Positions 2,407 through 17,578 of a stretch of 35,889 nt of DNA are shown here, piece by piece. Each line of letters starts with the position of its first letter. The first letter of the stretch is position 1. This DNA is from a virus, in IMG/VR virus record IMGVR_UViG_3300033550_000018, positions 1 through 35,889 of that record, one strand, 5' to 3'. The notes under the pieces were generated by a model, which had not been told where the DNA came from, searched no databases, and was given only the letters and a program-made list of their open reading frames with translations. The position numbers and the translations under genes were made by a program.

Positions 2407-3486
2407 TCACAGGCCGATGCCGTCGGTGGCGGCGTCCTCCCACATCTCGCCCTCTTCGACGTACTCCCAGAAGACGGGAGAGTTGGCGGCGTGGCCGGTC
2501 TGGGCGCGCAGCTTCTCCACGCGCTTCTTCTCCTTGCGGCCGGTGGTGACCAGGCCGCGGCGCATGCTGTGGACGGTCAGGCGGGTGTCGATCCCGGCAC
2601 GTTGGGCGGCGCGGGTGATGGCGATGCGGCAGCCGTCCGGGGACAGGCGGCGCTCCCCGAGGCGGCCGGCCTCGTTGACGGGGACGAACGCCGGGCCGGT
2701 GGTGCGTCCGAGGACTTCCTTCCAGGCAAGCCAGAGGCGCACGGGGCAGGTGGCGGCGTGCTGGCCGAACGCGACGGGCACGTCTCGGGCCGGGCGGTCC
2801 TTCACCGAGGGAACGGAGACGACCAGGCCCTCCCCCTCGAGCTTGATGCCGTCGACGGTGAGCTCGGACACCTCGGAGGCGCGGCCGCCGATCGCGAACG
2901 CCATGGCGGCGAGGGCGCGGTCGCGCAACAGGGCGTTCTCCGGGGGGACGTGCTTCTTGCGGGTGGCGGTCGGCTGGGGCTCCGCGGTGTTCATCTGCCG
3001 GATCTGAGCCGGGTTGGCCGCCTTCGCCTTGCCGCGGCCGCGCGCGATTCGCTGGGGGTCCTTCTTCATCGGCTTCAGCGCTTCGCGGGCGGCCTTGGTG
3101 GCCTCCTTGGGCACGGTGACGCCGTGCTCGCGGCGGGCGGTGACGGTGACTCCCGTGATGCGCCGGTCGATGGAGTTGGGGGCTGCCTTCTTCACCTGGT
3201 CCAGCCAGACGACGAACGACACCATGGTGCCCTTGGTGACGTCGGTGTCGGCGGGCCGTCTGCCGAGGCGGGGCTCCAGCCAGTCGAGGAACTCGAGCCA
3301 GAGCTCCCAGTCGCGTTTGTAGCCGTCCTTGGTCTTCTGAGGGCGGTTGTCGGCGAGGTACTTCGAGGCGGCTTGGTCGAGGGCGGCGAGGACGGCGGCC
3401 GCGGGGTCGACGACGTCCGGAAGGTGATCACCCACCTGCGGGGATGCTGCGGAGAGCAGTTCACCGCTCAACGGTTCGTCGTCCAT
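2407..3486 (-). CDS. int: tyrosine recombinase / integrase
   Basis: A 359-aa phage-integrase family site-specific recombinase. The N-terminal half (about residues 35-150) is a SAM-like core-binding domain. The catalytic domain has the full set of residues: Arg202 in GGRASEVSEL, His306 and Arg309 in HSMRR, His332 in TGH and nucleophile Tyr342 in VFWEYV. I chose the ATG at 3486 because GGAG lies 6 nt upstream. The frame runs on to 3660, but that would overlap the divergent gene at 3580 and lacks a ribosome site. No tRNA-like attP core is visible beside the gene, and the element carries a partition locus. It may therefore integrate at an unrecognised site or resolve plasmid multimers. Confidence 0.9.
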   Translation of the reverse strand: MDDEPLSGELLSAASPQVGDHLPDVVDPAAAVLAALDQAASKYLADNRPQKTKDGYKRDWELWLEFLDWLEPRLGRRPADTDVTKGTMVSFVVWLDQVKKAAPNSIDRRITGVTVTARREHGVTVPKEATKAAREALKPMKKDPQRIARGRGKAKAANPAQIRQMNTAEPQPTATRKKHVPPENALLRDRALAAMAFAIGGRASEVSELTVDGIKLEGEGLVVSVPSVKDRPARDVPVAFGQHAATCPVRLWLAWKEVLGRTTGPAFVPVNEAGRLGERRLSPDGCRIAITRAAQRAGIDTRLTVHSMRRGLVTTGRKEKKRVEKLRAQTGHAANSPVFWEYVEEGEMWEDAATDGIGL

Positions 3487-3505
3487 CTTCCACTCCGTCA
3501 TATGC

Positions 3506-3548
3506 CGGATACAGGGCCCCAACAGGCTCGGATATCGCATCTTATCCG
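3506..3548. promoter_or_regulatory. CGGATA repeats in the int / 3580 divergent region
   Basis: The intergenic region of the divergent recombinase and zinc-finger genes holds CGGATA at about 3506, and an inverted pair CGGATA (3529-3534) / TATCCG (3543-3548) with an 8-nt spacer. Such a dyad in a divergent promoter region is a plausible operator, or an arm-type binding site for the recombinase. This is inference from symmetry and position only. Confidence 0.3.
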
Positions 3549-3579
3549 AGTGCCTTGACGGTCGGGCAGACTGCTCCCC

Positions 3580-3822
3580 ATGGCTGCGCTTCCCCGGACC
3601 GAGTGCCCCGTGTGTTCCCGTGACGTCGCCGTCACCCGGCGGGGTCTGGTGTACCGCCATGATCCGGCGGGCGGCCGGGATCCCGAGTTGCGGTCCTGCC
3701 CGGGTTCGCTGAAGCCGGTTCAGGCGCCGGCGGGCGCGCTGCTGCTGTTCGTCTCCCCCGACGGTGACCCTTCGGTGTCCGCAATTGCGGACACCGCGCC
3801 GGAGCCGGTCGGGCTGTTCTGA
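3580..3822 (+). CDS. small zinc-finger-like protein
   Basis: An 80-aa protein with an N-terminal zinc knuckle: CPVC near residue 9, then YRHDP and SCPGS, giving a likely C-C-H-C metal site. The rest is Ala/Pro-rich. It is transcribed divergently from the recombinase and is the only plus-strand gene in the left third of the window. Small proteins with this CPVC...YRH pattern are, as far as I know, common in Streptomyces phages and plasmids, but their role is unknown. The ribosome site is weak. Confidence 0.6.
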   Translation: MAALPRTECPVCSRDVAVTRRGLVYRHDPAGGRDPELRSCPGSLKPVQAPAGALLLFVSPDGDPSVSAIADTAPEPVGLF

Positions 3823-3835
3823 CGGGCGGTGCGGC

Positions 3836-3970
3836 TCACGCGCCCCTGGCCGTGCGGCGGCGGGTGACGAACCGGTTCACGGCGTCGCAGTAGGCCCTGA
3901 ACACGATCGCCAGCCACGGCAGGGCCAGGAACAGGACGGCGAGGACGGCGAGGGTGACGGCCAGGTTCAC
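3836..3970 (-). CDS. 44-aa single-span membrane protein
   Basis: A short ORF starting with GTG at 3970, with GGAGG 9 nt upstream. The product begins with a hydrophobic helix (VNLAVTLAVLAVLFLALPWL), then FRAYCDAVNRF and a strongly basic tail (RRRTARG), so it should span the membrane once with its C-terminus inside. It is convergent with the zinc-finger gene 13 nt away. Size and topology would suit a small holin-like or membrane-associated accessory protein, but no family is recognised. Confidence 0.5.
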   Translation of the reverse strand: MNLAVTLAVLAVLFLALPWLAIVFRAYCDAVNRFVTRRRTARGA

Positions 3971-4305: not shown

Positions 4306-4588
4306 AACCCTCTGGTGAACCGGCCTGCCGCTGCTCCAGCCACAGCCGCAGAGCCGCGTCCAGAGCGTCCCGAATCTCGATGCCGTCGACCGCACACGCC
4401 ACTCGGAGTTCCTTCTGTAGCTCGGGGTCGATGTAGGAGCCGAAGGGCACCCGCTTGGGCTTGTCCGGTTTCGGCGGCGCTGACGGCGGGGCCGGAGCGA
4501 TGTCGCCGACGTGCAGTCGGTCCGCGTTCGGTGTCAGCGCCGGGTTGCTGTTGTCCGACACGGTCTTGCGGGGCCGGCGGGACGTCAC
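4304..4588 (-). CDS. ribbon-helix-helix partition protein (ParB/ParG-like)
   Basis: A 94-aa protein. Residues 1-44 are a flexible, Pro-rich, basic N-terminus. Residues 45-88 form a ribbon-helix-helix fold: KRVPFGSYIDPELQKEL gives the DNA-contacting strand and first helix, and VDGIEIRDALDAALRLWLE the second. Its ATG overlaps the ParA stop by four bases (ATGA), so the two are translationally coupled. A short ParA followed by a small RHH protein is the type Ib partition arrangement (ParF-ParG). There the RHH protein binds the centromere and its mobile N-terminus stimulates the ParA ATPase. The flanking iteron arrays are its likely binding sites. Confidence 0.85.
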   Translation of the reverse strand: MTSRRPRKTVSDNSNPALTPNADRLHVGDIAPAPPSAPPKPDKPKRVPFGSYIDPELQKELRVACAVDGIEIRDALDAALRLWLEQRQAGSPEG

Positions 4589-5385
4589 GGCGCGGGCACC
4601 GCCTTCGCCATCGTCTGGGCCAGCAGTTCATAGACGGCGCGCACCTCGCCGGCCTTCTCGCCCCGGACCTCGGTGAGGGGGATCTCGTCTCCGTCGGCGT
4701 CCACCAGGATCGAGCGGTGGGGTACGACCGGGTCCCACACGAGGGAGCCGAACAGTTCGCGGATGCTGGCGAGCTGGTCGGCGTGGGAGGCGAGGTTCTG
4801 CTTGGCGTTGACGATGACGCCGGCGAGGGCGAGGTCAGGGTTGGCGAGTTCGACGGCGCGGGCGCGGATGAAGTCGCGGACACGGACGGCGGCCTCTACG
4901 GAGTCGTACTCGGGTTCGCTGACGATGACGACGGAGTCGGCGGCCGCGAGGGCGAGCTGGGTGAGGTGGAACAGCGAGGGCGGGCAGTCGATGAGGGTGT
5001 AGGCGAAGTGGTCGTCGGCTCCTTCGAGGGCTTTGGTCAGCCGGCGCCAGGCGCCGACGATGCCGGCCTCGCTCATCCGGTTCTCCAGCTCGAGGCGGGC
5101 GGGGGCGAGAGCGATGCGGGAGGCGTAGTCAACATCCCAGCCGATCGGCTGGACGACTTGGGCGACGGAGCCTTCCCGGTCGGCCTGGATGGCTTCGCTG
5201 ATGGTGAGCTGGGGGGCGTCCGGGTTGTAGGCCCATCCGAGGCGGCGGGAGGCGTTGCCCTGGGGGTCCATGTCGACGACCAGGACGCGGTGCCCGGCTT
5301 TGGCGAGGCCTTCGGCGAGGCGGACGACGGTGGTGGTTTTCCCGACTCCGCCCTTGTTGTTGGCCACGGCTACGCGGTGTGCCAT
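4585..5385 (-). CDS. parA: ParA-family partition ATPase
   Basis: A 266-aa Walker-type ATPase. The deviant Walker A motif KGGVGKTT is at residues 11-18, VVDMDPQGN at 37-44 is the A' motif, and TLIDCPPSL around Asp133 is the Walker B. There is no N-terminal HTH, so it is a short type Ib ParA. The start at 5385 has AGGAG 7 nt upstream. It should bind nucleoid DNA with ATP and move plasmid copies tethered through the RHH partner to daughter compartments. Its presence argues that the element persists outside the chromosome at low copy number. The operon is bracketed by iteron arrays. Confidence 0.93.
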   Translation of the reverse strand: MAHRVAVANNKGGVGKTTTVVRLAEGLAKAGHRVLVVDMDPQGNASRRLGWAYNPDAPQLTISEAIQADREGSVAQVVQPIGWDVDYASRIALAPARLELENRMSEAGIVGAWRRLTKALEGADDHFAYTLIDCPPSLFHLTQLALAAADSVVIVSEPEYDSVEAAVRVRDFIRARAVELANPDLALAGVIVNAKQNLASHADQLASIRELFGSLVWDPVVPHRSILVDADGDEIPLTEVRGEKAGEVRAVYELLAQTMAKAVPAP

Positions 5386-6786: not shown

Positions 6787-8178
6787 TCAGGCCTGCGCGT
6801 AGTTGTCCAGCCGCGCGTAGTGCGCACGCTTGATGAGCTTGATCTCGCGGTTACGGATGCCGTTGCGGTTCTTCGCCACGATCATCGTTACCTCGTCCGG
6901 GGCGATGACCTCGCCCTCCTCGTTGCGAGGGGAGTACATCAGCAGGATGGCGCTGGAGTCCTGCTCGATGCTGGAGGACTCCTTGAAGTCCGTCACCTGC
7001 GGCTTGCGGTCCTTGGCCTCGCGGTTGAACTGAGCCAGGGAGATGACCGGCACGTCGAAGTCCATCGCGATCCGCTTCAGCCCGCGCGAGATGTCGGACA
7101 CCTCCTGAGTCCGGTTGCCCTTGTAGCTGCTGCCCTCGGCCTCCATCAACTGGAGGTAGTCCACGACGATCAGCCCGACGGGCATCCCCTGGGAAGCCAT
7201 CCAGCGAGCGCGGGCGCGGATCGTGTTGAGCGTGACCGAGCCGTCGTCCTCGAGGATGAAGTTGTGGGTGTTGGCCATCTGGTCCGACACGCGGGCGATC
7301 TTCTGCCAGTCGTCTTCGGTGAGTTCCCTGCGGATCAGCCGGCCCAGGTCGACCTTGGCCGTGCAGGCCGTAAGGCGAGCCATCAGCACCCTGGCGTTCA
7401 TCTCCATGGAGAACACCAGCGTCGGCTTGCCCAGCTTCATCGCAACGTGGGCAGCCCACTGGAGCGCCACGAGGGACTTACCGCCGGACGTCTCTGCGCC
7501 GATCGTGATGACGTCTCCCGCCTCGATGGGGAGGATCTCGTTGAGGTCCTTGTACGGGCTGTCGATGACGCTGTCGTCGGGGCCGCTCTCCAGGTCGTCC
7601 AGGAAGTCCTGCCACCGGTCGGCCACGGATCGCTTCGGAGCATCCATCGTGGCCGCGGTGAGGTCCTGCATGCCGGCCAGGCCTTTGTCGATGAGCGCGT
7701 CGGTGTCGAGGTCGTCGGAGTAGCCGTGCTGGACGACCTCCGTGGCCACCTCGATGGCGCTGCGCCGTTTCGCGCGCTCCAGCACGATCTCGGCGTAGTA
7801 GCCGGCGTTCGCGGCGGTCGGCACGGTCTGCACGAGGGTGTGCAGGTAGCCGACGCTGCCGATCCGGGCGGCCTGCCCGCGCTGGGTGACCTCGGCGCCC
7901 ACGGTGACGGGATCGGCCGGGTGGCCGTCGGCCCACATCTCGAAGACGACCTGATAGATCAGCTCATGCGCGGGCTTGTAGAAGACCTTGGGGCGCGGCT
8001 TGCCCAGGATGTCGACGACGACGCCGATGGCGTCCTTGGAGAGCAGCATGCCGCCCAGGACGGACTGCTCCGCGTCGAGGTCCTGCGGAGGGATGCGCTC
8101 GAACGTCCGCGTGTTGCGCTGGTCGTCCTCCCACATGTCGGCAGGGGGGACATCGGTGGTCTGTGCGGGGATACTCAT
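6787..8178 (-). CDS. dnaB: replicative DNA helicase, DnaB family
   Basis: A 463-aa hexameric replicative helicase of normal family length. Residues 30-140 are the N-terminal DnaB domain (DLDAEQSVLGGML). From about residue 205 comes the RecA-like core: Walker A GAETSGGKS at 227-235, FSMEM, Walker B LIVVDYLQL with Asp340, and the C-terminal KNRNG motif. The start ATG at 8178 has GAAGGG upstream. It should unwind the fork of the element's own origin and recruit host primase and polymerase. The upstream neighbour is the presumed initiator, so initiator and helicase form one leftward replication operon, separated by an 11-bp hairpin that could adjust helicase expression. Confidence 0.95.
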   Translation of the reverse strand: MSIPAQTTDVPPADMWEDDQRNTRTFERIPPQDLDAEQSVLGGMLLSKDAIGVVVDILGKPRPKVFYKPAHELIYQVVFEMWADGHPADPVTVGAEVTQRGQAARIGSVGYLHTLVQTVPTAANAGYYAEIVLERAKRRSAIEVATEVVQHGYSDDLDTDALIDKGLAGMQDLTAATMDAPKRSVADRWQDFLDDLESGPDDSVIDSPYKDLNEILPIEAGDVITIGAETSGGKSLVALQWAAHVAMKLGKPTLVFSMEMNARVLMARLTACTAKVDLGRLIRRELTEDDWQKIARVSDQMANTHNFILEDDGSVTLNTIRARARWMASQGMPVGLIVVDYLQLMEAEGSSYKGNRTQEVSDISRGLKRIAMDFDVPVISLAQFNREAKDRKPQVTDFKESSSIEQDSSAILLMYSPRNEEGEVIAPDEVTMIVAKNRNGIRNREIKLIKRAHYARLDNYAQA

Positions 8179-8253: not shown

Positions 8254-9363
8254 TCAGATGGCGGCGGCTTGCCGCTGGGGGAGGCAGTCGCAGGGGGCTA
8301 CGCGGTCGTCGATCTCGATGTAGCCGCGGTCGCATCCCTTGTCACACTCGATCTCGGCAGGCGTGTCAGGGGCCCCACTCGGCTGCGGAACGGTGGTCCG
8401 GGTGACGGCCTCGTAAAGCGGCAGGTTCGGGATGCGTTCCTTCTGGAGCATCCGGAACGGGTTCGTCATCTTGCCGGGGTTCCTGGTGAGCTGAGCGACC
8501 AGCAGCTTGCGGTTGACCTCTCCGATGGGCGGCCACTCCTGTTCGGCCATGACGGCAAGCAGCAGCGGAGCGAGACGTCGGGCGTTCGGCCTTCCCTGTG
8601 TCCAGGGGTCCGGCAGCAGCTGGAGGAGCTTGGCCGCAGCGGTGAGGTCTTCCTGCGCGAAGCGGTCCCCCTCCCCCTCCTCCGTCTGTGACGGGTGCTG
8701 CCGTGCGCCGTCAGTGTGGGGGTAGGGGGAGGAGGTAGTTACCTCCTCCGGGGGGTGTGGGGGGGACGCTTCCGATCCGGACAGGGTGTCCCGATCGGCC
8801 TGACCTGCAACGATTGACAGTTCCCGATCCGGACAGGGTGTCCCGATCGGCTCCGATCCGGACAGGGTGTCCCGATCGGCCTGACCTGCGTATCCGGACA
8901 GGGTGTCCCGATCGGAAGCGCCTTCCGGGCTCCGATCCGGACAGGGTGTCCCGATCGGCCTGACCTGCAACGCTTCCTGGACGCCCCCGCGGACGTATGC
9001 CGCGTTGTTGGCCGGGTTCCGGTACACGCGAAACGTCCATTCCGGACGCTTCGTCTCGGGGTTGTACTCCCGCTTGTGCTCCACGTGGCCAGCCTTCTTC
9101 AGCCGCCGCATGATCTTCCGAAGGTCCCGTTCGCTGAGCGTCCAGCCGCCCGCGCGGAACTCCTCCAGCAGCCCGAGCACGCTGGAGGGCTGGTTCGGGT
9201 TCCGGATCAGTAGGCGGATGAGCACGCCGTAATCGTCGAAGTCCAGGTCGGGTGACGTGGCGAGGGCGTACGGGATGACGACCTCTTCGGGCGGCTCCCA
9301 GGCCCGGACGACCCGAGACGACGTGAACGTCTGGTCGAAAGCGTCCTGCTGGCCGGCGCTCAT
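8254..9363 (-). CDS. winged-helix replication initiator containing origin iterons
   Basis: A 369-aa protein in four parts. Residues 25-115 are a winged helix (EEVVIPYAL, SERDLRKIMRRLKKAGHVEHKR) typical of phage and plasmid replication proteins. Residues 135-197 are a low-complexity linker encoded by five DNA iterons. Residues 225-310 are helical, perhaps the helicase-contact domain. The C-terminus has a zinc motif, CDKGC followed by CDC. The linker reads PIGTPCPDR where an iteron is in one frame and DRDTLSG where it is in another. The DNA, rather than the peptide, is therefore conserved, as in lambda O, where the origin lies inside the initiator gene. The start overlaps the upstream gene's stop by four bases. 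A DnaB-loading role is likely, given the neighbouring dnaB. Confidence 0.8.
   Translation of the reverse strand: MSAGQQDAFDQTFTSSRVVRAWEPPEEVVIPYALATSPDLDFDDYGVLIRLLIRNPNQPSSVLGLLEEFRAGGWTLSERDLRKIMRRLKKAGHVEHKREYNPETKRPEWTFRVYRNPANNAAYVRGGVQEALQVRPIGTPCPDRSPEGASDRDTLSGYAGQADRDTLSGSEPIGTPCPDRELSIVAGQADRDTLSGSEASPPHPPEEVTTSSPYPHTDGARQHPSQTEEGEGDRFAQEDLTAAAKLLQLLPDPWTQGRPNARRLAPLLLAVMAEQEWPPIGEVNRKLLVAQLTRNPGKMTNPFRMLQKERIPNLPLYEAVTRTTVPQPSGAPDTPAEIECDKGCDRGYIEIDDRVAPCDCLPQRQAAAI
8774..8958. repeat. five replication iterons (putative origin)
   Basis: Five copies of a 25-nt unit at 8774-8798, 8826-8850, 8855-8879, 8891-8915 and 8934-8958; only the first base of copy 4 differs. Each holds the dyad GGACA-GGG-TGTCC, flanked by GATC on both sides. 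Copies 1, 3 and 5 are followed by CCTGACCTGC. Start-to-start distances are 52, 29, 36 and 43 nt, so the copies fall in different reading frames. Iterons inside an initiator gene are the standard signature of a theta-type origin. Confidence 0.88.
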
Positions 9364-9686
9364 TCGGCATCACCCGAGGCGGGAGACAGCAGCCCACGAG
9401 CGGCAAGCCGGTCGACAGCGTCCAGCACGGTTTGGAGCTTGATGACCGGGGCGTCGTCGTCTCGCATGCCCTGGTCGGCCATGTGGTGCCAGACGGACTC
9501 TGCGGTGGCCTGCTGCCCTACCGCCTCAAAGGTCCGCCAGTACATGAGGACGGCCGGGTCGACGACGTCAGTGATGGACATGACCTCGTCGGCGGTGATG
9601 GTGACGAAGACGACTTCCTCGGGGTGCCCCGGGGCTCGCAGAGGCATCTTGAGCTCTCTGCCTGGGCTGTTGGCGGCGCTCGCCAT
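9360..9686 (-). CDS. hypothetical protein upstream of the initiator
   Basis: A 108-aa acidic, helical protein starting at 9686, with AGGGAA upstream. Its stop overlaps the initiator start by four bases (ATGA), so it is translationally coupled to it and heads the replication operon. Notable stretches are VVFVTITADEVMSITDVVDP and KLQTVLDAVDRLAARGLLSP; the latter resembles the last helix and wing of a small winged-helix domain. It might be a regulator or partner of the initiator, but no family is recognised. Confidence 0.65.
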   Translation of the reverse strand: MASAANSPGRELKMPLRAPGHPEEVVFVTITADEVMSITDVVDPAVLMYWRTFEAVGQQATAESVWHHMADQGMRDDDAPVIKLQTVLDAVDRLAARGLLSPASGDAE

Positions 9687-9901
9687 TTGGGTACTTCCCT
9701 TGCGGTAAGCGAAGTACTGAGACCCGAGTCATCCCCGGCCTGACTACCGACCCTTCCCGGTGGAAGGTAGTCTCGCCTGTGGGGACCTTCCCGGAACCCA
9801 GACTTCTCTAGTGGTAGAGACAACGCACTGGCCGGTCTTCCCGGCCGACCAGCGCAAACGCAGTTGGAGCCCGGCGTACCCCGCGCCGGGCTTCTGCGCG
9901 T
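9687..9901. other. structured non-coding interval
   Basis: 215 nt without a supported gene. It contains a nested hairpin at 9742-9772 (GACTACC/GGTAGTC outside, CCTTCC/GGAAGG inside). About 9803-9818 is a stem-loop whose loop and flanks (TAGTGGTAGAGA) look like a tRNA D-arm. About 9828-9844 is a GGCCGG/CCGGCC stem, and at 9869-9891 there is a terminator-like hairpin. It does not fold as a complete tRNA. It could be a leader, a small RNA or a recombination site. Confidence 0.4.
9869..9891. terminator. hairpin terminator after the AlpA/Xis-like gene
   Basis: A perfect 8-bp stem, GCCCGGCG (9869-9876) with CGCCGGGC (9884-9891), and a 7-nt loop. It begins 11 nt after the stop of the leftward gene 9902-10120. 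On the plus strand it is followed by TTCT, so it could also end a rightward small transcript from the structured interval. Confidence 0.6.
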
Positions 9902-10120
9902 CTAGGAGACTGCGGCCGGCTGGACGGTGACGCTGTCCATGTACCGGGCCCAGTCCTCACGGTTGACGCGGAGCACCCCGTCGAAGCGGAGCACTCGCAC
10001 GCCGGTGATCGTCCCTGCGGTGATGCGGTTGCGGACCGTGTCCGGGTGGCAGCCGAGGTAAGCGGCGGCCTCCGCAAGCCGCATCCAGTCCGGCGTCAGT
10101 ACCGGCTTGGTGTAGGGCAT
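9902..10120 (-). CDS. AlpA/Xis-type helix-turn-helix protein
   Basis: A 72-aa DNA-binding protein of the excisionase (HTH_17) type: MRLAEAAAYLGCHPDTVRNRI is the helix-turn-helix, followed by a wing (GVRVLRFDGVLRVNREDW). I chose the ATG at 10120 because AGGAG lies 7 nt upstream; the frame is open to 10210 but the extra part covers the conserved promoter element. In AICEs such as pSAM2, a protein of this kind is the excision factor for the tyrosine recombinase. Here it is 6.4 kb from the recombinase, so it might instead be a transcription factor. A second HTH protein of similar size (1824-2018) is the rival Xis candidate. Confidence 0.75.
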   Translation of the reverse strand: MPYTKPVLTPDWMRLAEAAAYLGCHPDTVRNRITAGTITGVRVLRFDGVLRVNREDWARYMDSVTVQPAAVS

Positions 10121-10173
10121 GGCGTGACTCCTAGGTCTGTTGTGTGGCGCAGACGAAACGCCGTACAGCAGAC

Positions 10174-10214
10174 CCTGACACAGATCCGGCGACACGTTCC
10201 CTACGCTCATCCGA
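10174..10214 (-). promoter_or_regulatory. conserved GGGAAC element (copy C)
   Basis: Read leftward: GGATGAGCG, then TAGGGAAC (ending at 10196), then GATCTGTGTCA, about 76 nt before the ATG at 10120. It is 29/37 identical to the element at 6673-6712. Next to it, at 10222-10233, is CCTGACCTGCAA, the same 12-mer that follows two of the origin iterons, within a TGCAA-GG-TTGCA dyad. Confidence 0.5.
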
Positions 10215-10252
10215 TTAACGCCCTGACCTGCAAGGTTGCAAATGTGCGTTGG

Positions 10253-11014
10253 TCACTCGTCGTCGTCCGACAGGGTGTAGTCGTAGGTCGACTCACGACC
10301 GGCTCCGGCGACGCTGACGCCGTACTCCACGACGAATCCGTCGTCGGTCCACAGGAACGTCGTCGACACCTTCACGGCGGCCGGCAGTTCGATGCCGAGC
10401 ATCTGCGCATCTTCCGCGGTCGCGAGCCGAGTTGAGATCTGGTCGCGCCCGCGGGTGGCCTTCTTTCCCGTCTGCTGTTCGACGTAGCCCCAACTGCCCT
10501 CCAGGATCCGCTCGGTCACGAGCAGCTTCGGCGAGCTGTCAGCGAGGGCCGCGTCGTACCAGGACGTAGATGCGCTGACCGGCTGGTCGTCGGGTCCGTA
10601 GGTCACTCGCACGCGACGGATCGCCATCGGGTTCGGGCCGGTGAGACCGAGCGCGTCGGCGACGTGGTCCGGAGCGTTGACGATCTCGGCCGTCTGGATC
10701 TTTGCGTACTCGCCCGGGGTGTAGATGCGGCCGGTCCGTCGTACCGACTTCGCCCTGTCGTGGCCGTTGCGGTTCACGGTCTTGGGGTCCACGACAACGG
10801 TGCGGAGTCCAGGGCCGCCGATCTTCACGTGCCCCTCGTCCTGCAACAGGTTGACTGCCTTCGATGCGGTGACCTGGCTGACGCCCCACTCTTCGGCGAT
10901 CTTCCGGAGGGTCGGAATCGGGTCCCCCGGCGACAGGTCACCCCTCGTGATCAGGCTCTTGTAGTGGTCGCAGATCTGAACGTAGGGGGGCCTGGACTGC
11001 TCCAACTTCGGCAT
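10253..11014 (-). CDS. GntR/HutC-family regulator (KorSA-like)
   Basis: A 253-aa repressor-type protein. Residues 8-75 are the GntR winged helix (PTLRKIAEEWGVSQVTASKA is the recognition region, followed by DEGHVKIG). Residues 90-245 form a UTRA effector domain (MAIRRVRVTYG, SASTSWY, RATAED-type motif ATAEDAQMLG, WTDDGFVVEYG). The start has GAGGAG 5 nt upstream. In pSAM2 and similar elements, KorSA, a protein of this family, represses transfer and replication activators and its own gene. Here the gene is divergent from the transfer module, with repeat operators in between, so it is the best candidate for the switch between silent plasmid and transfer states. Confidence 0.88.
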   Translation of the reverse strand: MPKLEQSRPPYVQICDHYKSLITRGDLSPGDPIPTLRKIAEEWGVSQVTASKAVNLLQDEGHVKIGGPGLRTVVVDPKTVNRNGHDRAKSVRRTGRIYTPGEYAKIQTAEIVNAPDHVADALGLTGPNPMAIRRVRVTYGPDDQPVSASTSWYDAALADSSPKLLVTERILEGSWGYVEQQTGKKATRGRDQISTRLATAEDAQMLGIELPAAVKVSTTFLWTDDGFVVEYGVSVAGAGRESTYDYTLSDDDE

Positions 11015-11708: not shown

Positions 11709-12632
11709 ATGCCCGCAACACCTGAGCAGTGGATCGCTGCTCTCTCACAGACCTACTGGACCACCGCCGGATCGACCGGCCGCCGGCCCGACCGGCAGAC
11801 CGCCGCCCGCACCACCACACGAATCGAGGGAGGGACGCCCGTGAACACGAAGGTGCTGGACAAGCAGCAGGAAGGCCGGGACGTCGTCGCCCGCGCCGCC
11901 CGCCTCACCCGTGAGGCTTCGCCCCTCGGCCGCATGGAGGCCGTCGCCATCCGCGACGCGTTCGTCATGGAGGCGGAGGAGCTGGCGGAGCAGACCGAGA
12001 CGGTCCGCACCCGCGCCTGCCCGGCCTGCGGATGCTTCACCCTGCTGCCGATCCGGGGCACCGCCCAGTGCGCGAACAGGCACTGCGCGCCCCGCCCGGG
12101 ACTGCGCCGCCGCTGGACCTACCGCGACCTCGGCTACGTGAAGGCCAGCAGCCCGCGCGGCGTGCAGCGCTCCGAGGGCTACCCCGCGGACCTTCGCCCG
12201 CTCACCTTCCTCACCGACTTCTTCAACCAGTCCGGGCACGCCGTGTCGATGTCGACGCTGGCCCGCTGGGTGAAGCTGCACAACCTCCCCCGCTGGCCGG
12301 TCGACTCCAACGCCTACGCCTACTCCCTCAGCGACGTCGCCACCGTGCACGCCGTGCAGCTCGCCGCCCGTGACGGCCGGCTGTGCGGGGACGGTGTCCG
12401 GCCCGCCTGCACCGGCTTGGCGCCGCTGTTCTTCAACGACGACACGGCCGGGGCGATGGACCAGAAGCTGGCCCGCCGCCGCATCGCCGTCGCCAAGGAA
12501 CTGTGCCGGGAGTGCCCGTTCATCGACCCGTGCCGGGCTGCCGCACTGAGGCCGAACGGCAAGCAGCAGCACGGCGTCGCCGGGGGGCTGACCTCCAAGG
12601 AGCGGCGCGTGCTGAAGGGGGAAGCCCGGTGA
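11709..12632 (+). CDS. multi-domain regulator with C-terminal WhiB-like domain
   Basis: A 307-aa putative transcription factor. Residues 104-126 form a zinc knuckle (CPACGC, then C121 and C126). Residues 160-215 look like a helix-turn-helix (SMSTLARWVKLHNLP). Residues 232-300 match a WhiB iron-sulphur domain: C234, C266, C269 and C275 with CRECPFIDPC, followed by GVAGG in place of the usual GVWGG turn, then a basic TSKERR tail. Free WhiB proteins are about 80-130 aa, so this is an unusual fusion. Two starts are possible: ATG 11709 behind GGGGGA, or GTG 11841 behind a stronger GGGAGGG. The latter would drop 44 residues of uncertain coding character. It may be an activator of the transfer genes or a redox-sensing modulator of host sigma factors. 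Confidence 0.75.
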   Translation: MPATPEQWIAALSQTYWTTAGSTGRRPDRQTAARTTTRIEGGTPVNTKVLDKQQEGRDVVARAARLTREASPLGRMEAVAIRDAFVMEAEELAEQTETVRTRACPACGCFTLLPIRGTAQCANRHCAPRPGLRRRWTYRDLGYVKASSPRGVQRSEGYPADLRPLTFLTDFFNQSGHAVSMSTLARWVKLHNLPRWPVDSNAYAYSLSDVATVHAVQLAARDGRLCGDGVRPACTGLAPLFFNDDTAGAMDQKLARRRIAVAKELCRECPFIDPCRAAALRPNGKQQHGVAGGLTSKERRVLKGEAR

Positions 12633-15559: not shown

Positions 15560-17578
15560 ATGGGACGCAAGGACAACGAGAACGTGCCCGCGCTGGTGAC
15601 CACCCCGGCCACGTCCGGCAGCACCCGGGCCTACCTGGTGCGACGCCTTCAGCCGCACCTCCCGCCGTGGATCGGCGTCGCCGGCGTCGGCATCGCCGGA
15701 GCCCTCGGCAACTGGCGGTGGGAGGGCAACGCCGGTGCCGGTGTCGGTCTCACCCTCGCCTCCGTCGCCCTGACCGGCGCCACCTGGTGGGCGGGTAAGT
15801 CCACCAGCCAGCAGCGCCGTCTGCACTCCGCGATCACTGTGGCGGCCGGGTCGGCGTGGCTGACCGGCGCTTGCCTCGCCGGGCCGATGACCGGAGCCCT
15901 GGACGACCTGTACCTGATCGGCGGCCCGCTCCTGGCCCTGTCGTGGAACGTGCGGCTGACGCTGCGCACCTCGGACCCTGCTGGTGAGAGCGCCGACAAG
16001 GGCCTGCTGGAGCGAGTGGGTCTGGCCCGCGCGCAGATCGGCGCGGCGAAGGTCGAGCCGAACCGGGTCACCGCGCCGCTGCTGCTGGACGCCGGCACGC
16101 AGACCAACGACGACGTCGCCAAGGCGCTGCCGGGGATCGCGTCCGCGCTGGACGTGCCGCGTACCGCGGTGCGCTACCAGCCCAACCCGGACTCCGAGCG
16201 GCGCGGTGATCTGGTCATCGTCCCCCGGGACATGCTCGCCGACACGGTCCGCTGGGAAGAGGAAGGGCCCGCCTTCCCGGGCGGATCCATCACCGATCCG
16301 CTGATCCTCGGCGTGTACGACGACGGGGCGCCGCTGGCCCTGTGGCTGCCCGGCGAGCCCCAGCAGGGCCGCAACGCCACGCACCTGCTGATCGCGGGCA
16401 TGACCGGCTCCGGCAAGGGGGACGGGGCCCTGAACCTGATGACGGAGATCCTGACCAGGAAGGACGTCATCGTGTGGCTGTCCGACCCGAAGGAGTTCCA
16501 GGACTTCCGTCCGTTGCTGCCCGCCTACGACTGGGCCGTCAGCTCCGGCCCGGACACCGAGCTCATGGTGGAGACGGTCAAGGCCGTCATCCCCGCCCGG
16601 ACGAAGTGGCTGGGCTCCCACAAGTACCGGCAGTGGGAGGCTGCGACCGCGCAGAAGCAGACCGACCCGAAGCACTCGTGCCACGACGACGGCACCGCGT
16701 GCGGCTGCCCCGGCCTGCCGTTCCACGTCGTCTGGTTCGAGGAAGCCGGAGTCTCCCTGGGCCTGCTCGGGGACGACGCGTTCAACTCCATCGCGAACCT
16801 GGCCCGGTCGGCGGGCATGGCGCTGATCGTGTCGCTTCAGCGGCCCAGCCACGACCAGATCAGCACCACCACCAGGGACGCCCTGGGCGGCCGGCTGTGC
16901 TTCGGCGTCCCCAACGCCACCGCGGCCGGGTTCATGCTGCCCGACACCGTCCTGGACGCGGGTGCCGCACCGGAGCGGTGGGCGAACCGCCGCCCCGGCT
17001 ACAACTACCTCGTCGCCCCCGGCATCCCCGAGGACAGGTACGCCGACCCGGGCCGCACCCGCTGGTTCACCGAAGAGTCCGTGTCGCTGATGGAGACCAT
17101 CGCCCAGTGGTTCGCCCGTAACGGAGCGCAGGTCGACCCGGTCACCGAGAAGGCCGCTCAGACCGTGGCCGGCCGCGCCTACACCGACCGGCGCCGCGTG
17201 GACGTGGACGCCCCCGACACCGAGGACGACGACATGAACGACGAGACCGAGCCGCTGGTCGATGCCGAAGACGAGAACATCGACCCCGAGCAGGAGCTGC
17301 CCGAGCTGGAGGACGGCGACGACGTGCCGCTGGTCCAGGAGACCGGCTACAAGCCGGACCCGGGCGAGGCCCGCCGGCTGTTCGCGCAGGCCCTCGAGGA
17401 GTTCGAGGCCGCAGGAACCATGGTGATCGGCCCGAAGGACTTCCGGGACTGGTGCGACCGCAACCAGCTCTCCCGCCCGTGGGTGTCCGAGCGGCTGAAG
17501 GAGGCCTACCTCGAGGGCCGCCTGGCGGACGCCGGGCGGGGCCGCTGGCGGATCGTCCCGCAGATGTCCAACGCCTGA
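15560..17578 (+). CDS. TraB/TraSA-type FtsK-like conjugative DNA translocase
   Basis: A 672-aa septal DNA translocase. Hydrophobic segments within residues 36-130 anchor it. An FtsK/SpoIIIE motor domain follows, with Walker A GMTGSGKG at 280-287 and Walker B HVVWFEE at 389-395. Between them is a Cys/His insert (SCHDDGTACGCPG) that could bind zinc. Residues 540-595 are an acidic linker. Residues 620-670 are a winged helix (DFRDWCDRNQLSRPWVSERL), the position of the DNA-recognition domain in TraB of pSVH1 and pIJ101-like plasmids. Those proteins move double-stranded plasmid DNA between mycelia as hexamers without a relaxase. The Walker A ends in Gly rather than Ser/Thr, which is unusual. AAGGAG lies 8 nt before the ATG. 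Confidence 0.88.
   Translation: MGRKDNENVPALVTTPATSGSTRAYLVRRLQPHLPPWIGVAGVGIAGALGNWRWEGNAGAGVGLTLASVALTGATWWAGKSTSQQRRLHSAITVAAGSAWLTGACLAGPMTGALDDLYLIGGPLLALSWNVRLTLRTSDPAGESADKGLLERVGLARAQIGAAKVEPNRVTAPLLLDAGTQTNDDVAKALPGIASALDVPRTAVRYQPNPDSERRGDLVIVPRDMLADTVRWEEEGPAFPGGSITDPLILGVYDDGAPLALWLPGEPQQGRNATHLLIAGMTGSGKGDGALNLMTEILTRKDVIVWLSDPKEFQDFRPLLPAYDWAVSSGPDTELMVETVKAVIPARTKWLGSHKYRQWEAATAQKQTDPKHSCHDDGTACGCPGLPFHVVWFEEAGVSLGLLGDDAFNSIANLARSAGMALIVSLQRPSHDQISTTTRDALGGRLCFGVPNATAAGFMLPDTVLDAGAAPERWANRRPGYNYLVAPGIPEDRYADPGRTRWFTEESVSLMETIAQWFARNGAQVDPVTEKAAQTVAGRAYTDRRRVDVDAPDTEDDDMNDETEPLVDAEDENIDPEQELPELEDGDDVPLVQETGYKPDPGEARRLFAQALEEFEAAGTMVIGPKDFRDWCDRNQLSRPWVSERLKEAYLEGRLADAGRGRWRIVPQMSNA

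Follow-up and report, generated by a model that had tools for sequence, protein, structure and literature searches.

A segment lying inside the initiator gene of a temperate actinophage, possibly a phage-plasmid, is in all likelihood the replication origin of this element; judging from the sequence, we give this reading a probability of roughly 87%. The element is the whole IMG/VR record IMGVR_UViG_3300033550_000018 (positions 1 to 35,889; 35,889 bp), referred to here as the window. It is a siphophage genome of Streptomyces type and encodes large terminase, portal, maturation protease, scaffold, major head, connectors, major tail, tape measure and tail spike, together with integrase, ParA, a GntR/UTRA regulator and a DnaB helicase. 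Since an integrase is also encoded, plasmid-like maintenance of the phage is only a possibility. An FtsK/SpoIIIE-like translocase (15560-17578) and a WhiB-domain protein (11709-12632) form, with ParA, a plasmid-like cargo in this siphophage genome. No Rfam match was found in the window. The genes and protein domains relevant to the origin are as follows.

8254-9363, minus strand: initiator gene (rep1-like), 369 aa, with a winged-helix N-domain, a disordered linker and a five-helix C-domain
8989-9246, minus strand: winged-helix domain, residues about 40-125, from the AlphaFold2 model and structural matches
8389-8661, minus strand: predicted five-helix C-domain, residues about 235-325, without a clear structural match
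6787-8178, minus strand: DnaB-family replicative helicase gene (rep2-like), next gene downstream of the initiator gene and co-oriented with it
10253-11014, minus strand: GntR/UTRA regulator gene, upstream of the initiator gene and present beside some relatives only
4585-5385, minus strand: ParA-like partition ATPase gene, on the same element as the initiator

The initiator is a three-part protein according to AlphaFold2 (18 homologs), which predicts a winged helix at residues 40-125, disorder at 128-200, the part coded by the repeats, and a helical C-domain at about 235-325 that also gives five helices when modelled alone. The initial annotation had described a winged-helix protein, which agrees with the prediction. 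Replication proteins head the structural matches of the N-domain: first the primosomal DnaB N-domain 5wtn (Z 9.3, 3.7 A, 103 residues), then the DNA-binding-protein N-domain 4pql (Z 8.3, 4.1 A, 85 residues), a staphylococcal plasmid RepA. Below these two come numerous winged helices of ordinary kind with Z around 7, and 5kbj matches with Z 7.3 over 80 residues. These model-based matches support a winged-helix fold for the N-domain and make no family assignment. Neither Foldseek nor VIA-align gave a convincing match for the C-domain, the initiator has no match in Pfam, NCBIfam or PHROG, and the RepA_N profile (PF06970) matched none of the 18 initiator homologs at E 0.1.

Within the linker-coding part of this gene, five copies of GATCCGGACAGGGTGTCCCGATCGG start at 8774, 8826, 8855, 8891 (one mismatch) and 8934, all in the open reading frame 8254-9363 (minus strand), whereas 100 dinucleotide shuffles of the window gave an expectation of 0 copies. 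The five near-identical units that had been noticed inside the winged-helix gene at 8774-8958 are thus real, as are their start-to-start spacings of 52, 29, 36 and 43 nt by position (43, 36, 29 and 52 in coding order). Each had also been recognized as a dyad with a GGACA-TGTCC core. When the units are aligned on their symmetry, the natural repeat is a 27-bp imperfect dyad of the form CCGATC-s-GGACA-sss-TGTCC-s-GATCGG. The tail noted on alternate copies is CCTGACCTGC on the plus strand, where it follows copies 1, 3 and 5 (8799, 8880 and 8959); on the coding strand the same sequence is a GCAGGTCAGG box preceding three of the dyads. Further CCTGACCTGC matches lie at 10222 and at 1819 (minus strand), the former (10222-10231) just upstream of an excisionase-like gene (9902-10210, minus strand). 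The elements of the putative origin, in coding order, are listed below.

8959-8968, minus strand: GCAGGTCAGG box 1, preceding the 1st dyad
8932-8958, no strand assigned: iteron dyad 1, read as PIGTPCPDR
8889-8915, no strand assigned: iteron dyad 2, one mismatch, read as DRDTLSG
8880-8889, minus strand: GCAGGTCAGG box 2
8853-8879, no strand assigned: iteron dyad 3, read as DRDTLSG
8824-8850, no strand assigned: iteron dyad 4, read as PIGTPCPDR
8799-8808, minus strand: GCAGGTCAGG box 3
8772-8798, no strand assigned: iteron dyad 5, read as DRDTLSG
8718-8765, minus strand: conserved GC-rich block with a 10-bp hairpin (8728-8749) and C-runs on either side on the coding strand

As had been claimed, the copies lie in different reading frames, PIGTPCPDR in some and DRDTLSG in others, with two of the three frames used rather than all three. 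By their spacings, the dyads in the window are not all in helical phase, a point against the origin reading. The regular 7-nt step between the spacings 29, 36 and 43 also drew early attention; it is true of the window, L006 and L009, but it is not conserved in other classes of relatives, where the spacings are 42/37/29/52-53 or 33/37/29, and it was dropped as a coincidence after this comparison.

The comparison set comprised about 40 related plasmids and phages. Initiator homologs were found on 50 Streptomyces or Kitasatospora plasmids, both linear and circular, and at 19 loci in the genome collection (Streptomyces, Kitasatospora), with matches in 25 of 393 Streptomyces genomes; the phage collection yielded no relative of the initiator. 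In nearly every relative locus with room to show it, dnaB lies directly downstream, and each relative examined has repeats of its own in the same linker. L006, a close phage relative, shares the five dyads and their spacing with the window. A noncoding leader in the window (9704-9901) has about 70% identity with the stretch immediately preceding rep in L006 and is not found in the other loci; in the window it is separated from rep by a 108-aa ORF (9360-9686). Three more distant initiators (L061, L062 and L064) come from large contigs that are probably chromosomal; their linkers contain repeats of the ERSPxRE type, and dnaB is the next gene. A DnaB search of viral contigs gave only L085 (IMGVR_UViG_2675903061_000001) as a further case, in which the gene before dnaB (3009-3908) carries four dyads CGTAGAGGGTCAGAACTTGACCCTCTA within the initiator at 33/45/54 nt, in one frame and without the hairpin block.

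Among genes with the same type of N-domain, the dyads fall into five classes.

Class A: GGACA-TGTCC, the class of the window phage
Class B: GGCGG-CCGGCGG
Class C: CGTTGGAwTCCAACG
Class D: GCGGGAAACCCGC
Class E: TCGGGGAAAACCCGA

By hand-written patterns, 29 of 31 genes could be assigned to a class, and class tracks N-domain clade with no mixing; the homologs are related, so that these counts are not independent, and some nodes of the tree are weakly supported. What the classes share is geometry. Averaged over 24 relatives, with the window left out, dyad symmetry peaks at 153, 87 and 35 nt before the hairpin (0.556, 0.538 and 0.479) and is lower at 116 nt (0.42), all four peaks exceeding the best of 50 shuffles (0.368). 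Dyad positions are fixed to about 1 nt across classes, and in many class D genes a 9-nt deletion shifts the first dyad. In the 393 Streptomyces genomes, class A dyads occur as isolated single matches only, and therefore no host array was found.

Do the repeats persist as DNA or as protein? Between the window and L006, differences occur at 4 of 135 dyad positions and 0 of 21 box positions, compared with 22 of 62 in the spacers (dyads versus spacers, Fisher p 2e-9), and 34 of 100 third codon positions differ in the N-domain. The near-invariance of the dyads against diverged spacers, and a dyad class that tracks the DNA-binding domain, together with the predicted winged helix and the adjacent dnaB, bear out the initial annotation in its claim of initiator-embedded iterons selected as DNA, and such selection is strongly supported by the sequence comparison.

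Two further elements are common to the different dyad classes. One is the CAGGTCA box: GGTCA occurs 137 and 56 nt before the hairpin in 20/25 and 24/25 genes, respectively, and at the same two places in 6/14 genes with unrelated N-domains, with its glycine codon being GGT, which is used only 15% elsewhere. The other is the GC-rich DNA hairpin, which is conserved at synonymous sites. Its stem reaches at least 8 bp in 39/39 genes with the block (median 10), compared with a mean of 4.7 under a synonymous-codon null; these genes were found partly by the purine/pyrimidine ends of the block, which biases the stem-length count in favour of the hairpin, and the synonymous null and the codon data are independent of that selection. 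Proline codons in the block are fixed, including the uncommon CCA, and the middle of the hairpin varies with pairing kept (TAACTA, AGGATT, TGGAAA and TGGATA, plus longer and shorter forms). A pattern with a free middle occurs nine times in the 393 Streptomyces genomes, and 9/9 of these lie inside rep genes of the initiator family. A four-tract G-quadruplex in this block was considered and rejected; because several relatives miss one pair of C-runs, the hairpin is the more constant feature.

Tracking identities along the gene points to exchange of its parts. Compared with L006, the window is 86% identical in the N-domain and 38% in the C-domain, while in the C-domain it shares 65% identity with L052, for which the N-domain comparison yields no real match. 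At the DNA level, identity to L006 is 86.6% over N-domain, dyads and hairpin and falls beyond. Recombination at the shared hairpin block, swapping N-domain plus dyads against the C-domain, explains these mosaic identities to L006 and L052.

These results also bear on what the repeats are for. The dyads could instead be operators for the initiator or for the upstream GntR/UTRA protein, controlling the rep-dnaB operon from which the origin would be separate. Repressor sites are usually dyads, and a GntR/UTRA gene does lie upstream in the window and beside several relatives. However, the dyads are situated about 400 bp inside the gene, their class follows the Rep N-domain, and near most dyad-bearing relatives there is no match to the GntR protein of the window, which together make this explanation unlikely; autoregulation by the initiator on top of origin function is possible. 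The covariation of dyads and N-domain, which move as one cassette, likewise tells against a parS-like centromere serving the element's ParA partition system, as does the fact that the dyads always lie within the rep linker. The ParA gene at 4585-5385 and mycobacteriophage prophages that have parS repeats beside repA (PMC7157519) are in its favour, and we regard it as quite improbable.

Selection for repeated peptides in the protein linker is hardly credible, even though the linker has a conserved length and no repeat interrupts the protein frame. Read in two frames, one DNA sequence yields unrelated peptides; the linker is predicted to be disordered, and between classes the linker peptides are wholly different while the DNA geometry is kept. 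Moreover, the shared elements have fixed and unusual proline and glycine codons.

If the segment is a replication origin, initiator dimers would attach to the five 27-bp dyads by way of their N-terminal winged helix, assembling a nucleoprotein complex of fixed geometry, after which the strands would open. Aided perhaps by the GC-rich hairpin and the CAGGTCA boxes, the C-domain may then pass the DNA to the phage's own DnaB for helicase loading. As the sites lie between the DNA-binding domain and the C-domain, recombination at the hairpin would move the domain with its own sites and give the replicon a new, presumably compatible specificity. Around the dyads the GC content is 64-71% and there is no A+T-rich unwinding element, a point against the origin reading; the hairpin is a candidate strand-opening site. 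GC skew in the window follows gene orientation only.

More speculatively, the family may be a modular origin, in which a constant chassis (the hairpin replacing an A+T-rich element, the CAGGTCA boxes, the C-domain and DnaB) accepts exchangeable winged-helix/dyad cassettes at fixed geometry. The hairpin would be the opening or helicase-loading site, and the forces behind dyad diversification would be incompatibility and competing nucleases that cut origins and carry the same N-domain (the T5orf172 fusions of L012 and L053). We hold this extended scheme to be doubtful as a whole. In L012 (CP107743, S. tubercidicus plasmid; 2965-3621) and L053 (210-923), a Rep N-domain and a T5orf172/MUG113 (GIY-YIG) nuclease domain are joined in one fusion; the rep gene immediately downstream has a different N-domain and different dyads, and the N-domain of the L012 fusion groups with the A/B/C type (weak support). 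The Odn nuclease of phage ICP1 cuts rival origins (PMC8263062), and by analogy with its architecture these fusions are candidate origin-directed nucleases.

The principle of an origin inside its initiator gene is already known; for dyad classes at fixed geometry, CAGGTCA boxes, the hairpin and cassette swapping we found no earlier description. In this family, nature provides a series of DNA-binding domains that diverge in step with their sites at fixed spacing, which makes the recognition code, the part played by geometry and the basis of compatibility among Streptomyces plasmids and phages directly testable. It also raises the question of how strands open in a GC-rich origin without a nearby A+T-rich element, and it supplies probably compatible replicons for use in Streptomyces.

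Among known systems, a central locus made up of rep1 (iteron) and rep2 (helicase) commonly serves for the replication of Streptomyces linear plasmids (PMC13152386). The window resembles these plasmids (pSLA2, pSCL) in that the gene for a DNA-binding initiator contains the iterons and a DnaB-like helicase gene lies next to it, and in the host group, and relatives of its initiator sit on Streptomyces linear and some circular plasmids. Chang and Cohen reportedly described the rep1/rep2 origin of Streptomyces linear plasmids (pSLA2, pSCL) in 1994, and Chang, Kim and Cohen are said to have placed the pSLA2 iterons inside rep1 in 1996 and to have called the origin phage-like. Here, by contrast, the element is a siphophage, and the likeness described is one of layout. 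In the pSK41 Rep, a winged-helix N-domain binds sites in the rep gene, an ori-encoded linker follows and the C-domain is separate, and pPR9 is a natural chimera in which the N-domain plus ori were exchanged (PMC5703833). This RepA_N case shares with the window the three-part plan, sites inside rep and N-domain-plus-ori exchange, with the predicted winged helix shared as a fold only; it differs in that the window family has no Pfam RepA_N match, adjoins its own dnaB, is GC-rich and has several dyad classes at fixed geometry with a shared hairpin. Where RepA_N initiators have a compact five-helix C-domain resembling DnaD, the protein of the window has five predicted helices and no significant structural match. 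In Vibrio PLE satellites, a RepA_N DNA-binding domain covaries with its iterons while the C-domain is conserved, and swapping has been inferred (PMC8263062), a close likeness except that PLE iterons are intergenic, outside repA. The initial annotation had pointed to the lambda O gene, whose 19-bp dyad iterons are bound by O dimers beside a 40-bp A+T-rich element (PMC5043065). The gene layout fits, with an origin of dyad iterons inside the initiator gene and the helicase step encoded by the next gene; the analogy fails at the A+T-rich element, which the window lacks, and at the next gene, since lambda encodes the loader P for host DnaB whereas the window encodes DnaB itself. The segment is best read as an iteron origin carried within the gene of its own initiator, as in lambda O, pSK41 and the rep1/rep2 plasmids of Streptomyces.
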